From Spirochaetota bacterium (GTDB taxonomy: Bacteria; Spirochaetota; Spirochaetia; Treponematales; UBA12059): DNA of 36,104 nucleotides. Position 1 is the stretch's first letter, and each line of letters begins with the position of its first letter. Of the stretch, positions 1 through 7,118 are shown piece after piece. The stretch lies in the NCBI GenBank assembly GCA_003247225.1, contig QKAK01000218.1:1-36104 (forward strand), written 5' to 3'. The notes under the pieces were generated by a model. The model ran no database searches. It was not told where the DNA came from and worked only from the letters and a program-made list of their open reading frames with translations. A program made the position numbers and the translations under genes.

Positions 1-163
1 CCGCCTCTATGAAAGGCCGGGGGGCCGCGCCGAGCTCGCCGAGCAGGGCGGCGTAGCCGTCGTCGGCCGGCGGCGAGCCGGCGCAGCCCGCGGCGGCGGC
101 GATGAGCGACGCGGCGCAGGCGGCGAGCGCCGCCCGGCTCAGCCGAAGACGTACGGCGACCAT
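1..163 (-). CDS. Putative lipoprotein, N-terminal part only
   Basis: The reading frame opens at ATG 163 and runs off the left edge, giving 54 codons. The predicted protein starts with a basic n-region (MVAVRLRLSR), then an alanine-rich hydrophobic stretch to about residue 25, then AAGC with Cys27 as the likely lipidated residue. This is a type II signal peptide with a relaxed, spirochaete-like lipobox. The mature part begins AGSPPADDGYAALL, which I do not recognise. The start lies inside the last 25 bases of the upstream hydrolase gene in another frame, so the two genes are probably co-transcribed and coupled. An alternative LAAC lipobox at residues 13-16 would leave too short a signal peptide. 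The function is unknown. Confidence 0.6.
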   Translation of the reverse strand, partial: MVAVRLRLSRAALAACAASLIAAAAGCAGSPPADDGYAALLGELGAAPRPFIEA

Positions 164-1005
164 TGCCGGACGAAGCCCCTGAAGCCGAGCGCATCGGCCT
201 TGGCGGCGGCCGACTCGGCGGCGTCGCCGTAGTGCATCAGCCAGGTCTTAGCCCTGGTCTCCGGAGGCAGGGCGGCCAGCTCGTCGAGCGAGGCGTGCAC
301 GCCGCCGGTGAACAACTGGCAGTCGTGGAACGCGGCCTCGATGGCGTAGCGCTCCTCGACGAAGCGCAGCATGTCGGGGTCGAAGCGCGTGTCGCTCGTG
401 TACAGCACTCGGCCGTCTATCACGACGCCGTAGCTCGGAGCCGAGGAGCGCCAGCTGGGCGCCGAGTCGGGGATGTGCCTGGTCCTGAACATCGCCACCC
501 GTATGGACCCGACGCTCGCCTCGCAGAGCTGCCTGTCCGCGCCGGGCACCGGCTCGAGGTCGACCGCGTCCCAGAGATCCTCGAAGCGCAGGAAGCGGCC
601 CTCGCGACGCTCGTTGTAGGCCGCTCCGCCCTTCAGCGAGTGCTTCCAGAGGTACTTCCGGTAGGCCGCCGGGGCTACCATCGTCGGCCTCTTGCCTGCC
701 ATGTAGCGGTTGAGCAGCATGACCTCCTCGAGGCCGCCCACGTGGTCGGCGTGGGAGTGCGTTATGAGGTAGTTGCCGATATCGGTCACCGACAGTCCGA
801 GCCGCGCGAGCGCCTCGGGAGCCCGCGTGCCGCAGTCGATCAGCAGGTGGTCGTCGCCCTTAACCACGAGCGCGTTGTTCTGGTAATAGCGCTTGGTGAA
901 GGCGCTGCCGGCGCCGATAAAGAATATGGATAGACGGTCGTCCGACCTCGATAGCAAGGCCTTGCCCGAGTCCGGTTCGCGCGATTTTTCGCTTGCGTCG
1001 GTCAT
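139..1005 (-). CDS. Metallo-beta-lactamase fold hydrolase (RNase Z-like)
   Basis: This is a 288-residue cytoplasmic protein of the metallo-beta-lactamase superfamily. The zinc signature HSHADH lies at residues 83-88, preceded by the strand and loop LLIDCGT (54-60). Further likely ligands are in the TRHIPDS region, in YTSDTRF and in the C-terminal WLMHYGD. The overall pattern resembles the RNase Z and cyclic nucleotide phosphodiesterase branch more than glyoxalase II. The N-terminal 25 residues look like a disordered extension. No Shine-Dalgarno sequence precedes ATG 1005; a TATAGT box ends seven bases upstream, so the mRNA may be leaderless. The gene is divergent from the M23 peptidase gene. 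The substrate cannot be told from sequence: tRNA 3' processing is possible but the protein is not a clear RNase Z. Confidence 0.85.
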   Translation of the reverse strand: MTDASEKSREPDSGKALLSRSDDRLSIFFIGAGSAFTKRYYQNNALVVKGDDHLLIDCGTRAPEALARLGLSVTDIGNYLITHSHADHVGGLEEVMLLNRYMAGKRPTMVAPAAYRKYLWKHSLKGGAAYNERREGRFLRFEDLWDAVDLEPVPGADRQLCEASVGSIRVAMFRTRHIPDSAPSWRSSAPSYGVVIDGRVLYTSDTRFDPDMLRFVEERYAIEAAFHDCQLFTGGVHASLDELAALPPETRAKTWLMHYGDAAESAAAKADALGFRGFVRQWSPYVFG

Positions 1006-1127: not shown

Positions 1128-2159
1128 TTGGCGACGCTGAAACGATACAAGGATTTCGAGAAATCGGTGGCCAAGCGCGCGAGCGCCGCGGTCCGCCGCG
1201 GTTTCTCGTCCGTTATCGGCGCCGCGGCACGATTCTTCAAGGCCGGTAGGCAGAAGCTTACCATCATGCTGGTCCCCCATTCGGAAAAGCGCATCTTCAA
1301 CCTGCAGATCAGCGTCTTCGGCCTCGCGGCAGTGCTAGCCCTCGTGCTCGGCGCCGCGGGCTTCCTGGCGTATTCGTCCGTCGGCTACGGCGACGTGGTC
1401 GGCAAGCTGGCCGGCAAGACCGAGAGCCTCAAGGCCACCCAAGCCGACCTCGACGCCATCCGCGACAGCACGGCCAGGCTGGTCAAGTCGGCGCGCTCGT
1501 TCCAGGCGGCCCTCGACTCGACGCTGGCCGGCATCGGCATCAAGAGCCAGTCCGACGCGGCCTCGCGCGCCGACGGCGACCTGGCGGCGTTCTTCTCGCC
1601 CTCGGAGGCCGGCTCCGGCCGCCTGCGCGAGGCCGCCGAGATAGAGCGGGTCAGCGCCTACCTCGAGCGCAGCGTCAAGCCGCTCGACGAGCTCGGCGAC
1701 ACGATAGCCGCCCAGGGCGGCATCATGTCGGAGATACCGAACATCTGGCCGATCAAGGGCGGCATCGGCCATATATCGATGTACTACGGCCAGAACGAGA
1801 ACCCGATCTACGGCTCCTGGTACATCCACAAGGGCATCGACCTGTCCACCTTCCGCTCCGGCGACCCGATCCTGGCCACCGCGGACGGCAAGGTCGTCAC
1901 GGTCGCCTACGACATCAGCCTCGGCAACTACATCATCATAGAGCATAAGCACGGCTTCCTGACCCGCTACGCGCATATGTCGGCCTTCAAGGTCCAGAAG
2001 GGCGCGGTCGTCAAGCAGGGCCAGGTGATAGGCTATATCGGCAATACCGGCCTCTCGACCGGCCCCCACCTCCATTACGAGGTGCACCTCGGCACCGAGA
2101 CCATCGATCCGCTCCGCTTCCTCAATATCCGCTCCGGCTCGGCCGCGTTGACGCGGTAG
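1128..2159 (+). CDS. Membrane-anchored M23 family peptidase
   Basis: This is a 343-residue peptidoglycan endopeptidase of the LytM/M23 family, anchored in the inner membrane and facing the periplasm. A basic cytoplasmic segment (1-60) is followed by one membrane helix (about 62-84), a helical region likely to coil (90-200), and the peptidase domain (205-335). Zinc and catalytic residues are visible: H234 and D238 in HKGID, H283 in YAHM, and H314/H316 in HLHYE. All expected ligands are present, so an active enzyme is likely. The start is TTG 1128, chosen because GGAGG at 1117-1121 sits six bases upstream. The gene lies 23 bases before a bactofilin gene. M23-bactofilin pairs are widespread, and in several bacteria the bactofilin scaffold localises the peptidase to control cell shape; a role in helical shape here is an inference. 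Confidence 0.9.
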   Translation: MATLKRYKDFEKSVAKRASAAVRRGFSSVIGAAARFFKAGRQKLTIMLVPHSEKRIFNLQISVFGLAAVLALVLGAAGFLAYSSVGYGDVVGKLAGKTESLKATQADLDAIRDSTARLVKSARSFQAALDSTLAGIGIKSQSDAASRADGDLAAFFSPSEAGSGRLREAAEIERVSAYLERSVKPLDELGDTIAAQGGIMSEIPNIWPIKGGIGHISMYYGQNENPIYGSWYIHKGIDLSTFRSGDPILATADGKVVTVAYDISLGNYIIIEHKHGFLTRYAHMSAFKVQKGAVVKQGQVIGYIGNTGLSTGPHLHYEVHLGTETIDPLRFLNIRSGSAALTR

Positions 2160-2182
2160 CCGGCGCCGGGTAGGATACTGGC

Positions 2183-2653
2183 ATGCCGGCCCCTCGCGAC
2201 GTCCTCGTAAACACGCTCCTCGGCCCCGACAGCTCGTTCCGGGGCGACCTGGTCGTCGACGGCTTCGTACGCGTCGACGGCGACGTACGCGGCACCATAC
2301 GCAGCTCCGGCAAGATAGTGATCAGCGAGGCGGCCCGCTGCGACGCGTCGATCGTCGCCAGGTCCGCCGTCATAGGCGGGGTAGTGCGGGGCGACGTCTG
2401 CGTCACCGAGCGGCTGACCATCCTGGACGGCGGCGTCATCGTCGGCAACGTCTTCACCCCGAGGCTGGACGCGGACGGCGAGGTCATCATGCACGGCGAC
2501 GTCCAGGTCGCGCCGTCGGGCGACGGCGTCGAGGAGGCCATGCTGGCCTTCATCCGCGGGCACGGCTCGACGATAAGGCCGTTCGGCTTCGACGCGCCCT
2601 CCGACGAGCGCCGCGGCGAGGCCGTCTCCGCCGGGGCCGCATGGAAAAGGTAG
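2183..2653 (+). CDS. Bactofilin
   Basis: This 156-residue protein is a bactofilin, a nucleotide-free cytoskeletal protein that polymerises through a right-handed beta-helix. The core runs from about residue 12 to 115 and shows the regular alternation of short beta strands with glycine turns (for example FRGDLVVDGFVRVDGDV and VIGGVVRGDVCV). A short N-terminal tail (MPAPRDVLVNTLLG) and a C-terminal tail flank it, as is usual. There is no membrane segment; some bactofilins bind membrane through the N-terminal tail. The gene follows the M23 peptidase gene closely and overlaps the yaaR start by 13 bases, so the three are one transcription unit. The likely role is a scaffold for localised cell wall remodelling. 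Only a weak purine stretch precedes ATG 2183. Confidence 0.9.
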   Translation: MPAPRDVLVNTLLGPDSSFRGDLVVDGFVRVDGDVRGTIRSSGKIVISEAARCDASIVARSAVIGGVVRGDVCVTERLTILDGGVIVGNVFTPRLDADGEVIMHGDVQVAPSGDGVEEAMLAFIRGHGSTIRPFGFDAPSDERRGEAVSAGAAWKR

Positions 2654-3144
2654 GGCTCCCCGACAACCTGCTCTCGAGCCTCGTTCCCGGCCTGTCGGGC
2701 CAGAGGGCCGATAAGAAGAAAGAAGCCGCCAAGGCGTCGCCCAAGGCCCTGCGCTTCAGGTCGGCCCTGAAGGAGGCCGAGGAGATCGACCTGACGCCGG
2801 CCGCCGAGGGCCTGCCGTTCTCCGAGGCCGAGGCCGCCGAGCTGCTCGATTCGGTCCACGCCGCCGGCGAGGAGCTCAAGCGCGATCCCGACCCCGCCCG
2901 CGTCAAGGCCTACAAGTCGGCGGTACGCGATTTCGTCCACTACGTCGTCGGGCGCGCCTACGACGTGGTCGAGAAGAGCTCGGGCGGCAACATACTGAAA
3001 CGTAAGAAATTCACCACAGTCGTCGTGATAGACGAGAAGCTCGAGCGCCTCGCCGCCGAGGTGCTCTCGGCCCAGCGCGACAAGCTCGACATTCTACGGC
3101 GCTTAGACGAGATCCACGGCCTGCTCGTGGACCTCCTGCGCTGA
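2641..3144 (+). CDS. yaaR: YaaR family protein (DUF327)
   Basis: This 167-residue soluble protein belongs to the YaaR (DUF327) family. The diagnostic part is the C-terminal half: a conserved region around VKAYKSAVRDFVHYVV (about 98-113), then a KRKKFTTVVVIDEKLERLA segment, then a helical end. The first 60 residues are charged and probably disordered. The molecular function of YaaR is not established. In Bacillus subtilis yaaR lies near yaaT (ricT), and here too ricT follows 32 bases downstream, so the association is conserved over a very large distance. The ATG lies inside the bactofilin gene with a 13-base overlap and no strong Shine-Dalgarno sequence, which suggests coupling. Confidence 0.8.
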   Translation: MEKVGLPDNLLSSLVPGLSGQRADKKKEAAKASPKALRFRSALKEAEEIDLTPAAEGLPFSEAEAAELLDSVHAAGEELKRDPDPARVKAYKSAVRDFVHYVVGRAYDVVEKSSGGNILKRKKFTTVVVIDEKLERLAAEVLSAQRDKLDILRRLDEIHGLLVDLLR

Positions 3145-3176
3145 ACCGGCCGTCCTGGCCGCTAGGAGAGACGATC

Positions 3177-4118
3177 ATGGATGACGATATGGACTATATG
3201 CACGGGGACGAGGACCTCAGCCACCTCGAGGACGAGCACGTACCGGCCGCGGACGAAGGCGGCCATTGCGGCGAGCTGCCCGATCCGCTGTACCGGCTCC
3301 GGGCCGATCCGTACAACGAGTCGTACTACGCCTGCTTCGACTCGCCGCTCGAGCCGGGCGCGCGCGTCGTCGCGCCGACCCGCTACGGCAAGGATATCTG
3401 CACCGTGCTCGGCACGGTCAAGGCGCCGGGCTTCGTGCGCGTCGACGACATCGTCAGGATAGACCGCGTCTCGACGCCCGAGGACGAGGCGCGCAGGGCG
3501 GCCGACGAGCAGAAGGAGAAGAAGGCCTTCGAGCTCTGCCAGGAGAAGATCAAGGCCCATAACCTGCCGATGAAGCTCGTCTTCGCCCATTACCTGTTCG
3601 ACGAGCAGAAGGTGCTGTTCTTCTTCACCGCCGACTCGAGGGTCGACTTCCGCAACCTGGTCAAGGACCTGGTATCCATCTTCAAGATGCGGATCGAGCT
3701 GCGCCAGATCGGCGTGCGCGACGAGGCGCGGGTCGTCGGCGGCTGCGGGGTCTGCGGGCGGGTGCTGTGCTGCCACGGCGTCACCGACAAGCTCGTGCCC
3801 GTGTCGATCAAGATGGCCAAGGACCAGAACCTGTCGCTCAACTCGCTCAAGATATCGGGCCCGTGCGGCCGCCTGCTCTGCTGCCTCGCCTACGAGTACG
3901 GCTTCTATCGCGAGGCCAGGCGCGGCATGCCGAGCGAAGGCGTCAGGATCCCGTACGACGGGACGGTATTCAGGGTGGTCGAGGTCAACGTGCCGGCCGG
4001 GCGCCTACGCCTGTCGGGAGAGGACGGCCGCTACATCGAGGCCATGTCCACCAGGTTCGTACAGCGCGACGGCCGATGGGCGATGCTCGACGAGGAGTCG
4101 GCCGAGCCGGCCGACTGA
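3177..4118 (+). CDS. ricT: PSP1 domain protein RicT (YaaT)
   Basis: This 313-residue cytoplasmic protein carries the PSP1 domain. Two cysteine clusters, CGVCGRVLCC (Cys190, 193, 198, 199) and PCGRLLCC (Cys230, 235, 236), match the pattern in B. subtilis RicT, which binds iron-sulfur clusters together with RicA and RicF and modulates RNase Y-dependent mRNA processing. The first 35 residues are very acidic and non-conserved. The start at ATG 3177 follows an AGGAGAG sequence. No ricA or ricF gene is visible nearby, so the partner set may differ from Bacillus. It is the last gene of the M23-bactofilin-yaaR-ricT unit and is followed by a strong hairpin. Confidence 0.88.
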   Translation: MDDDMDYMHGDEDLSHLEDEHVPAADEGGHCGELPDPLYRLRADPYNESYYACFDSPLEPGARVVAPTRYGKDICTVLGTVKAPGFVRVDDIVRIDRVSTPEDEARRAADEQKEKKAFELCQEKIKAHNLPMKLVFAHYLFDEQKVLFFFTADSRVDFRNLVKDLVSIFKMRIELRQIGVRDEARVVGGCGVCGRVLCCHGVTDKLVPVSIKMAKDQNLSLNSLKISGPCGRLLCCLAYEYGFYREARRGMPSEGVRIPYDGTVFRVVEVNVPAGRLRLSGEDGRYIEAMSTRFVQRDGRWAMLDEESAEPAD

Positions 4119-4190: not shown

Positions 4191-5213
4191 CTATTCGGTG
4201 TAGCCGGTCACCTCGAGCTCGAAGACCAGGTACGAGTTCGGCGGTATCACGCCGCCGGCGCCCTGGGTACCGTAGGCCAGCTCGGGCGGTATGGCGACGA
4301 CGCGGCGCTCGCCCTTCCTCATCTGCTCGATGACCAGGTCCCAGCCGACGATCACCTGGCCGGTGCCGAGCTCGAACTCGATGGGGCCGCCGTGCAGTAT
4401 CGACTGGTCGAAGACGCGGCCGTCGGGCAGCATGCCCTTGTAGGATACGTTGACCAGGTAGCCCCTGAGCATCGTCGGCCCGGAGCCTTCCTCGAGCACC
4501 TTCGATAGGATCCCGCTCGGCTGGCGCTCGAGGCCGGGCCACTTCGCGAGGATCGCGTCGACGCTGGCCTGCCTCGAGGCCAGGGCGCGTAGCTTGGACG
4601 CCTCCGCCGCCGGTCCGTAGTAGCGGTTCCACGCGGCCTGGTCGGTCTCGAAGGCCTTCGCGGCGTCGCCGACGCGGCGTATCGTAACCTTGGTCATCAC
4701 GTCGCCGGCGGCTATCTTCTCGACGACGTCCATCCCGTCGACGACGCGGCCGAAGGCGGTATACGAGTCGTCGAGGAAGGGGGCGGCTTCGAGCGTTATG
4801 TAGAACTGGCTGCCGTTCGTGTCGGGCCCGTGGTTGGCCATAGCGACGACGCCCGGGGCGTCGTGCCTGACGGCCGGGTCGAATTCGTCGGGGAAGTTGT
4901 AGCCGGGGTCGCCGGAGCCGTCGCCGAGCGGATCGCCGCCCTGCACCACGAAGCCCGGCTCCACGCGGTGGAACGACAGGCCGTCGTAGAAGCGCTTGCC
5001 GGCGTTCGCGTCGAGGGTACCCTCGGCCAGCCCGACGAAGTTAGCGGCCGCGAGCGGCGCGTGCTCGTAGTCGAGCGATATGGTGAAAGAGCCCTTGACC
5101 GTCTCGACCACGGCGTAGAGGCCGTCGGGCAGTTTGGGGCCTTGCTGGCACGATACGACCGAGGCGGCGGATAGGAGAGCCGCCGCCAGGGCGCCGGTCT
5201 TGATGAAGCGCAT
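4191..5213 (-). CDS. Lipoprotein cyclophilin-FKBP fusion (dual prolyl isomerase)
   Basis: This 340-residue lipoprotein joins two unrelated peptidyl-prolyl isomerases. The signal peptide ends in VVSC with Cys22 as the lipid site. A cyclophilin domain follows (about 30-180) with [14 protein letters not shown] and NGSQFYITL, so the catalytic Arg, Phe and Gln are kept. A helical linker of about 70 residues leads to an FKBP domain (about 238-338) with VSYKG, FDQS, VIVGW and AYG. The start at ATG 5213 is chosen over an upstream ATG because GGAGGT lies eight bases before it and the signal peptide begins there. It is probably a periplasmic or membrane-tethered folding catalyst. Such dual immunophilins are rare; a cyclophilin-first form has been reported from Treponema denticola, which supports a spirochaete origin. 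Confidence 0.9.
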
Positions 5214-5276
5214 CGAAGTACCTCCGGAACGAGCTGAACGACGGTACCATAAATCCGCCGCGCGGGCAAGGTTCAT

Positions 5277-5361: not shown

Positions 5362-5853
5362 ATGTCCGAGACCGCGTATTCCAGGCCGACCTGGGACGAG
5401 TACTTCATGGAGGTGTGCCGCGCCATCGCGAAGCGCGCCACCTGCGACCGCGGCCGCTCCGGCTGCGTGATCGCGAAGGATAACCAGATCCTGGCCACCG
5501 GATACGTCGGTTCGCCGTCGGGGCTGCCCCATTGCGACGAGCTCGGCCACCAGTTCAGGAAGACCGTCCACGAGGACGGCTCGGAGTCGACCCATTGCGT
5601 GCGCAGCGTCCACGCCGAGCAGAACGCCATCTGCCAGGCCGCCCGCAGGGGTATAGCCATCGAGGGCGCGACGCTGTACTGCAAGATGACGCCGTGCCGC
5701 GCCTGCGCGATGATGATCATCAACTGCGGCGTAGTACGCGTCGTCTGCGAGCGCAAGTACCACGCCGGCGCCGAGAGCGAGGAGATGTTCTCGAAGGTCG
5801 GCATACGCGTCGAGTACGTCGAGGACGAGGTGGAGCGCTACGAGCGCCAATAG
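5362..5853 (+). CDS. Deoxycytidylate (dCMP) deaminase, ComEB type
   Basis: This 163-residue enzyme deaminates dCMP to dUMP, feeding thymidylate synthesis in the cytoplasm. The zinc-dependent deaminase signature is complete: HAE at 84-86 with the proton-shuttling Glu86, and PCRAC with Cys112 and Cys115. The extra cysteines and histidines in the insert (Cys28, Cys35, H57-C58, H78-C79) match the second, structural zinc site of the ComEB/dCMP deaminase branch. Length is normal. The start at ATG 5362 follows a strong GGAGGG, and a TATACT box at 5339-5344 gives a short leader; no convincing -35 box is seen. The gene may be co-transcribed with the YmdB-like gene 61 bases downstream. Confidence 0.92.
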   Translation: MSETAYSRPTWDEYFMEVCRAIAKRATCDRGRSGCVIAKDNQILATGYVGSPSGLPHCDELGHQFRKTVHEDGSESTHCVRSVHAEQNAICQAARRGIAIEGATLYCKMTPCRACAMMIINCGVVRVVCERKYHAGAESEEMFSKVGIRVEYVEDEVERYERQ

Positions 5854-5914: not shown

Positions 5915-6742
5915 GTGGGCATACGCATCCTGTACATCGGCGAGATAGTCGGCCGCGCCGGCGTCTTCGCCGTCAAGAAACTCCTGCCGGCGCTCAGGCG
6001 CGAGACGGGCGCCGACCTGGTCGTCGCGTGCGCCAACGGCGCCACGGGCGGCTCCGGCATAGGCAAGGCGCATTCGGTCTACCTGCGCAAGCTGGGCATA
6101 GACGTGCTGACGACCGGCGAGGCGGCGTTCTACAAGAAGGACATCGTCGAGGCGTTCCCCAAGTCGCCTTGGCTGCTGCGGCCGCTCAACTACCCGCCGG
6201 GCGTGCCGGGCAGGGGCTTCCGGGCGTACCGGACGCCGAAGGGCCCGGTCGTCGTCGCGCAGCTGCTCGGCCAGGCCGGCTTCCCGCGGGTGCACCTGGA
6301 GAATCCGTTCCACGTGCTCGACGCGGCGCTGCCGACCCTCCTGGAGGGCTCGCGGGCGGTGCTGCTCGACTTCCGCGCCGCGACGACGGCGGAGCGCCGC
6401 GCGATGGCCAGGTACGCCGACGGCAGGGTCGGCGCGGTGCTCGGCTCGTACGGGCGCGCGCTGAGCGCCGACGCCGAGGTGTCGCCCGCCGGCACCGCCA
6501 GCATGACCGATACCGGCCGGACCGGCAGCCTGATGTCGGTCGGCGGGATGGACGCCGCGACGAGGATCCACGAGTACCGGAGCGGGGTGCCCGTATGGGC
6601 CAAGGATTCGTCGGAGCGGCCCGAGCTGCAGGGCTGCGTCGTAGAGATAGGAACGGACGGGCGCGCCGCGTCGATCGAGACGCTGCGCGTGCCGTGCGAG
6701 GAGGAATTCGGTGAGGGAACGGGGAATAGTGACCAAGGTTGA
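5915..6742 (+). CDS. YmdB-family metallophosphoesterase homologue lacking the metal site (pseudoenzyme)
   Basis: The 275-residue protein aligns along its length with the YmdB/TIGR00282 phosphodiesterase family. It keeps the fold-defining segments LYIGEIVGRAG, LLRPLNYPPGVPG, YADGRVGAVLG and GTASMTDTGRTG with the later GGMD. Compared by eye with B. subtilis YmdB, the metal ligands are nearly all replaced: Asp8 is Glu10, Glu39 is Ala40, Asn67 is Glu69, His68 is Ala70, His150 is Arg154, His175 is Tyr179 and His177 is Arg181. Only Asn41 seems kept. A two-metal active site looks impossible, so this is probably a non-catalytic or re-purposed member. The reading frame is intact, which argues against simple decay. 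The start is GTG 5915, with no good Shine-Dalgarno sequence. The 3' end overlaps the RseC-like gene by 32 bases. Confidence 0.8.
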   Translation: MGIRILYIGEIVGRAGVFAVKKLLPALRRETGADLVVACANGATGGSGIGKAHSVYLRKLGIDVLTTGEAAFYKKDIVEAFPKSPWLLRPLNYPPGVPGRGFRAYRTPKGPVVVAQLLGQAGFPRVHLENPFHVLDAALPTLLEGSRAVLLDFRAATTAERRAMARYADGRVGAVLGSYGRALSADAEVSPAGTASMTDTGRTGSLMSVGGMDAATRIHEYRSGVPVWAKDSSERPELQGCVVEIGTDGRAASIETLRVPCEEEFGEGTGNSDQG

Positions 6743-7118
6743 CGGCGCGGCCGTCACCGTACGCATATCCGGCGGCGAGGGCTGCGCCTCCTGCACGTCC
6801 GGCCACGACTGCTCCATAGTCGGCAAGGAGCTGGTCGGCGACGCGCCCGCGGGCGTCTCCTTCGCCGCGGGCGACGAGGTCGAGCTGGTGGTGCCGGATT
6901 CGGCCAGCGCGGCCGGGGCGCTATGGCTGCTGGCGGTGCCGCTCGGGCTGTTCTTCGCCGGCTACGCCGCCGGCGCCGCGCTCTGGCCGGGCAGGGGCGA
7001 GGGGCCGCGCGCGCTGCTCGGGCTCGTGGCCATGGCTCTCGGCCTGCTGTTCGCCGCCGTCGTCGCGCGCCGCGGCCGCATGTCCAGGCGGCCGACGGTC
7101 GTGCCCCTCGTCTCCTAG
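6711..7118 (+). CDS. RseC/MucC-like membrane protein with cysteine cluster
   Basis: This 135-residue protein matches the SoxR-reducing system RseC family. A small N-terminal beta domain carries Cys25, Cys28 and Cys34 (CASC followed by HDC), and two membrane helices follow at about 64-88 and 98-118 with a basic C-terminus. In enterobacteria RseC works with the Rsx/Rnf electron transport complex, and family members elsewhere are thought to handle redox centres; the role here is inferred only. The GTG start at 6711 lies six bases after a GAGGAGG run and 32 bases inside the YmdB-like gene. Its TAG stop shares the palindrome CTAG with the stop codon of the convergent DJ-1 gene. Confidence 0.75.
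   Translation: MRERGIVTKVDGAAVTVRISGGEGCASCTSGHDCSIVGKELVGDAPAGVSFAAGDEVELVVPDSASAAGALWLLAVPLGLFFAGYAAGAALWPGRGEGPRALLGLVAMALGLLFAAVVARRGRMSRRPTVVPLVS

Follow-up and report, generated by a model that had tools for sequence, protein, structure and literature searches.

A spirochaete-wide YmdB paralogue with stepwise loss of its two-metal site, probably a pseudo-phosphodiesterase

Results

The YmdB-like gene and its neighbours

The DNA analysed here, referred to as the window, is a 36,104-nt stretch from a Spirochaetota bacterium (assembly GCA_003247225.1, contig QKAK01000218.1), and the window protein is the product of its open reading frame 5915-6742. The frame is intact and lies between two genes of the same strand:

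5362..5853, forward strand: dCMP/cytidine deaminase-family gene (PF00383, 86 bits), upstream with a 61-base gap
5915..6742, forward strand: probable pseudo-YmdB, a degenerate YmdB paralogue of 275 residues with a GTG start and TGA stop (PF13277, AlphaFold2 model, match to 4b2o, clade support)
6711..7118, forward strand: RseC/MucC-family membrane protein with a CX2CX5C motif (PF04246, 67 bits; cut-off 24.4)

The first 32 bases of the RseC gene lie within the 3′ end of the YmdB-like gene, preceded by a GGAGG Shine-Dalgarno-like site, and the RseC product carries both the family profile and the cysteine motif, here CASCTSGHDC. RseC is a cytoplasm-facing Fe-S membrane protein tied to Rnf, and in E. 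coli RseC CX2CX5C is described as an Fe-S site (PMC11729352). Of 92 testable loci across related genomes, 62 have RseC as the next gene downstream, with a CX2CX5C-like motif in most of the neighbouring RseC proteins; both genes are missing from two congeneric genomes. The upstream neighbour varies, being a deaminase in 16 loci and a TPR or Hsp20 gene elsewhere. An obligate link to RseC was rejected as a universal rule: Borrelia-like genomes hold the YmdB-like gene without RseC, and RseC is present in 7 of 11 tested genomes that lack the YmdB-like gene, several of them Treponema-like (both labels are inferred designations given to relatives' genomes). The coupling to an RseC-like protein proposed in an earlier, sequence-only reading of this DNA is thus borne out by the overlap and by the 62 loci, but is neither universal nor necessary. 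In the Borrelia-like family, with chromosomes of ~1 Mb, the gene order is ABC ATPase, laccase, NIF3, lspA, the YmdB-like gene, a murA-like gene and MatE.

Elsewhere in the window, positions 1128-4118 (forward strand) hold M23 peptidase, bactofilin, DUF327 and PSP1 genes in series, and clusters of this type recur in the same order beside the YmdB-like gene in related genomes. A lipoprotein-like fusion of cyclophilin and FKBP peptidyl-prolyl isomerases in one chain lies at 4191-5276 (reverse strand; PF00160, PF00254). The metallo-beta-lactamase-fold protein at 139-1005 (reverse strand) has Anti-Pycsar Apyc1 as its best Pfam match (PF23023, 143 bits versus a cut-off of 50), ahead of the general models for Lactamase_B, though the protein may be no more than an ordinary chromosomal relative.

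The window protein has a full-length YmdB fold

The PF13277 (YmdB) profile matched the window protein with 231 bits, against a gathering cut-off of 27, over positions 1-252 of its 253. The NCBIfam equivalog TIGR00282 scored 157.6 bits, below its curated cut-off of 254.15; since the canonical YmdB of the same genome also falls short at 239.8 bits, this cut-off is not decisive in the window's genus. The nearest solved structures are B. subtilis YmdB (4b2o; E = 1.4e-35, ungapped across the first 120 residues) and the Thermus, Deinococcus and Mycoplasma homologues. An AlphaFold model of the window protein (pLDDT 92.2, pTM 0.91) aligned with 4b2o along the full length of the YmdB fold (VIA-align Z 38.6, rmsd 1.8 over 259 residues), the next-best matches being 5'-nucleotidases at Z 19. 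The view that the frame is intact and keeps the YmdB signatures was therefore confirmed.

All eight YmdB site residues are replaced

The metal ligands of YmdB are D8, E39, N40, N67, H150, H175 and H177, with His68 and Asp71 forming a catalytic dyad (PMC10406935). At the positions of D8, E39, N40, N67, H68, H150, H175 and H177 the window protein has E10, N41, G42, E69, A70, R154, Y179 and R181, and Y73 replaces D71. The replacements, numbered by window protein and compared with 99 paralogues and 66 canonical homologues, are as follows:

5942..5944, forward strand: Glu10 for metal-1 ligand Asp8 (E in 98/99 paralogues, D in 66/66 canonical)
6035..6040, forward strand: Asn41-Gly42 for bridging Glu39 and Asn40 (position 39 is D/E in 80/99 paralogues, N in 18)
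6119..6124, forward strand: Glu69-Ala70 for metal-2 ligand Asn67 and catalytic His68 (position 67 acidic in 99/99 paralogues, Asn in 66/66 canonical)
6374..6376, forward strand: Arg154 for metal-2 ligand His150 (R in 11/11 of the window subclade; His in 88/99 paralogues)
6449..6451, forward strand: Tyr179 for metal-2 ligand His175 (Y in 10/10 of the subclade; His in 69/99 paralogues)
6455..6457, forward strand: Arg181 for metal-1 ligand His177 (K/R in 98/99 paralogues)

The alignment thus keeps 0 of 8 site residues. The sequence-only reading had also seen an erased site but counted one Asn as kept; that residue, N41, aligns with Glu39 and not with Asn40, a register on which the ungapped alignment and the D/E found there in most paralogues agree. 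It had further taken all eight residues to be metal ligands, which is incorrect for His68, a residue of the catalytic dyad (PMC10406935). The window protein therefore has neither the two-metal ligands and catalytic His68 of YmdB nor the metal-2 set used by the epimerase MslH (equivalents of E39, N67, H150 and H175), where it shows N, E, R and Y; at the MslH dyad positions 68/71 and 177/8 it has A70/Y73 and R181/E10. A metal site rebuilt from other residues finds no footing at the eight aligned positions, where His, Cys and Asp are absent. Salt bridges E10-R181 and E69-R154 are plausible in the window protein.

A spirochaete-wide paralogue clade of single origin

On a different contig of the same genome, the gene just after that of RNase Y encodes another YmdB, in which every site residue is present (D E N N H H H H). 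Orthologues of the window protein occur in most of the 39 nearest relatives and throughout the class; beyond the class, three more families of the phylum have them. Among the matches listed, named records with the paralogue include Spirochaetae bacterium HGW-Spirochaetae-3 and many Treponema and Spirochaetaceae MAGs, and the non-spirochaete matches among the best 80 listed are all canonical YmdB. In trees of 99 non-redundant paralogues and 66 canonical proteins, built with the site columns left out, a single branch separated the two groups (SH-aLRT 98 and 99). The paralogue clade is therefore spirochaete-wide and has a single origin; on these trees the duplication may fall either inside the phylum or earlier. 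All eight site residues are kept in 66/66 canonical homologues and the D8/H177 pair is absent in 99/99 paralogues, which places the erased site beyond chance. Close relatives of the window protein have not retained the ligands, and the intact copy in the window's genome is a separate paralogue.

In one complete genome (G031:C1 3118824-3130077) only ~10 kb separate the canonical and degenerate paralogues, which are on opposite strands, and the distance is ~20 kb in Borrelia-like genomes; this proximity may be a trace of local duplication. In a ~2.6 Mb genome of family f22, the canonical ymdB consists of two overlapping frames instead of one (G168:C1 222988-223765). Our literature search found no paper relevantly pairing YmdB with spirochaetes and none bringing together pseudoenzyme and metallophosphoesterase. 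The Borrelia member of the clade may be BB0470, a name for which the same search found no paper.

Stepwise loss of the two metal sites

Three replacements are nearly fixed in the paralogues (E8 in 98/99, an acidic residue at 67 in 99/99, K/R177 in 98/99), and H68 is retained in only 1/99, with Cys the commonest residue at position 68 (39/99). On the tree, E8 and K/R177 each account for one change and acid67 for none, while the minimum number of changes is at least 4 for H150, at least 12 for H175, at least 9 for acid39 and at least 31 for position 68. Given this difference in counts, the metal-2 ligands are dispensable and the replacements are not. A one-metal set (D/E39, D/E67, H150, H175) is complete in 62/99 paralogues, and the AlphaFold model of one such member (pLDDT 93.7) has nearly the same elements as that of the window protein. 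The loss was thus stepwise: metal site 1 went when the paralogue arose, and metal site 2 disappeared repeatedly. This contradicts a single-step erasure within this gene, as loss of site 1 is older and a one-metal site 2 is plausible in 62 of the 99 members.

Where H150 was lost, it became Arg in the window subclade, Ser in a Treponema-like genus and Asp in the Borrelia-like family, and position 39 is Asn or Ala wherever this happened. Losses of acid39 and of the histidines run in the same direction whenever both differ, though the independent pairs are few. Within the window subclade the replacements are conserved (R154 in 11/11; Y179, R181 and E69 each in 10/10), against a background in which just 101 of 266 columns are invariant over the nine complete rows. 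In many members where H175, changed to Gly or Asn, is the sole histidine lost (L164, L168, L169, L172 and relatives), RseC lies elsewhere in the genome and not beside the gene.

A new conserved set under purifying selection

The paralogues have acquired a set of residues of their own: T44, G50, H53, Y56, K59, F123, R125, N130, R202, S205 and Q239 (window numbering) are fixed in them and variable or different in canonical YmdB. Some of these lie at:

6071..6091, forward strand: helix face His53-Tyr56-Lys59 (H in 90/93, Y in 80/93, K in 92/93 paralogues; variable in canonical YmdB)
6287..6289, forward strand: Arg125, a paralogue-specific conserved basic residue (R/K in 90/93)
6518..6529, forward strand: Arg202-Ser205, in a GRTGS motif (R in 89/93, S in 87/93)

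At the places of Arg202 and Ser205, canonical YmdB has M (45/46) and P (37/46). H53, Y56 and K59 are predicted to share one face of helix 51-59. Members without H150 keep these paralogue-specific residues (H51 and K57 in 11/11, R198 in 9/11, S201 in 10/11, YmdB numbering), and H53, K59 and S205 (window numbering) persist in nearly all of them, the Borrelia-like included. Since metal site 2 was lost repeatedly while these other conserved features stayed, the shared function probably needs no metal-2 site.

The paralogue is under purifying selection, with dN/dS of 0.03-0.21 overall (0.03-0.15 against congeners and ~0.2 against neighbouring genera), no higher than the 0.12-0.27 of canonical YmdB; the values are rough, some dS being near or beyond saturation. 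The earlier judgement that this is not random decay therefore stands, on the same replacements across the subclade, the selection and the class-wide orthologues.

Co-retention with canonical YmdB

Among 266 near-complete genomes of the class, ~196 have at least two YmdB matches, 10 have one and 60 have none, those listed among the 60 belonging mostly to one Treponema-like family. The paralogue and canonical YmdB are thus mostly retained or lost together, and the paralogue tracks canonical YmdB more closely than it tracks RseC, a pattern that few independent losses may underlie. RNase Y is still present in the tested genomes without either paralogue; a tie to RNase Y loss was rejected, as the Treponema-like genomes lacking both keep it.

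Discussion

We consider the window protein to be probably a pseudo-phosphodiesterase: a spirochaete-specific YmdB paralogue with the calcineurin-like fold and no two-metal site, which works by binding. At the origin of the paralogue, as read from the alignments, metal 1 gave way to a Glu8-Lys/Arg177 pair, presumably a salt bridge, with His68 lost and Asn67 turned into an acid. In the window's lineage metal 2 was replaced as well, the bridging acid becoming Asn41 and the histidines Arg154 and Tyr179, to leave a pocket of two acids and two arginines. This old pocket, or the new face formed by H53, Y56, K59, R125, R202, S205 and Q239, could be where an anionic ligand or a partner binds, and binding may regulate another protein. 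Candidates for that protein are the cell's own canonical YmdB and RseC, the Fe-S membrane protein encoded alongside. We infer the absence of catalysis, the ligand and the partner. The canonical YmdB beside RNase Y in the same genome would cover catalysis, which supports the pseudoenzyme reading. That reading, already offered from the sequence, gains from the fold, the selection and the conserved replacements, but its extension to other lineages is tempered by the possibility of a one-metal enzyme there.

Such an enzyme would make the family mononuclear, like MslH, and the window subclade a further modified, possibly metal-independent form. The 62 of 99 members with acid39, acid67, H150 and H175, equivalents of MslH Glu44, Asn87, His259 and His261 (PMC10406935), could still bind one metal, so that the family may once have been enzymatic and some of it may still be so, and Cys68 is the commonest residue at its position. 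Against this, H150 and H175 changed repeatedly while the rest was conserved, position 68 is variable, both catalytic dyads of MslH (H68/D71 and D8/H177) are absent, and the window protein lacks the native metal-2 ligands; as an account of the whole family we find it improbable. A decaying gene, or a sequencing or assembly artefact, could explain why all known site residues are lost, yet 11 genomes of several genera share the replacements, dN/dS is far under 1, the frame is open and orthologues are class-wide. We regard this as extremely improbable, and decay of a single gene is rejected by the orthologues with the same replacements together with dN/dS.

Two special cases of the pseudo-phosphodiesterase explanation name the partner, and each is tentative. 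As a regulatory or structural subunit of canonical YmdB, in a hetero-oligomer or as a decoy for the same ligand, the protein would fit the near-constant joint presence or absence of the two paralogues in near-complete genomes of the class and their separate joint absences in the Treponema-like group, the small genome G032 and G387, where RNase Y stays. The two genes are, however, not neighbours in the window's genome, canonical YmdB is often alone outside the class, and the co-loss may reflect only few events. Possible to a like degree is that the protein works specifically with RseC, as a cytosolic subunit or sensor acting on RseC/Rnf electron transfer, which accords with the frequent adjacency or overlap, the mostly kept cysteine motif, the two congeneric genomes without both genes and the cytoplasm-facing, Rnf-tied nature of RseC; it is at odds with the Borrelia-like genomes that hold the paralogue without RseC, the several families that place RseC elsewhere, and the Treponema-like genomes with RseC alone.

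A positive residue occupies a metal-1 ligand position in practically all paralogues, and a second arginine lies at a metal-2 position in the window protein. We speculate, while thinking it rather unlikely, that these arginines and the paralogue-specific basic residues form a metal-free sensor pocket for a nucleotide or phosphate ligand that signals to canonical YmdB or RseC. If so, a spirochaete-wide signalling pair, present also in Borrelia-like genomes, has been missed under a phosphodiesterase annotation.

On the pseudo-phosphodiesterase reading, what is new is a pseudoenzyme variant of the known YmdB family, older and wider than the sequence-only reading had it, whose function would lie in binding. 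Profile searches assign the gene to a metallophosphoesterase family though it has no place for metals. The paralogues form a natural series that runs from enzyme towards pseudoenzyme, for which the working enzyme present in the same cell provides the control. The series yields testable predictions on non-catalytic roles of YmdB folds, and the paralogue occurs in little-studied yet medically relevant bacteria.

Comparison with known systems

Calcineurin-like folds that have lost catalysis and serve as protein-binding subunits are known in Vps29 and in the B-subunits of archaeal and eukaryotic DNA polymerases. These are different families, Vps29 matching the window model weakly by Foldseek. The lasso-peptide epimerase MslH (8GQ9) has a calcineurin-like fold near that of YmdB and has lost one of the two metals, using only the site equivalent to E39/N67/H150/H175 (PMC10406935). 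Counterparts of D8, H68, D71 and H177 still form His/Asp dyads in MslH, whereas the window protein has neither these nor the metal ligands, and the two share only a remote fold similarity. Closest are B. subtilis YmdB (4B2O), Deinococcus DR1281 (1T70) and TTHA0625 (2CV9), which share the whole-length fold at ~30% identity; the window protein differs from them in keeping none of the eight site residues and in belonging to a separate paralogue clade.
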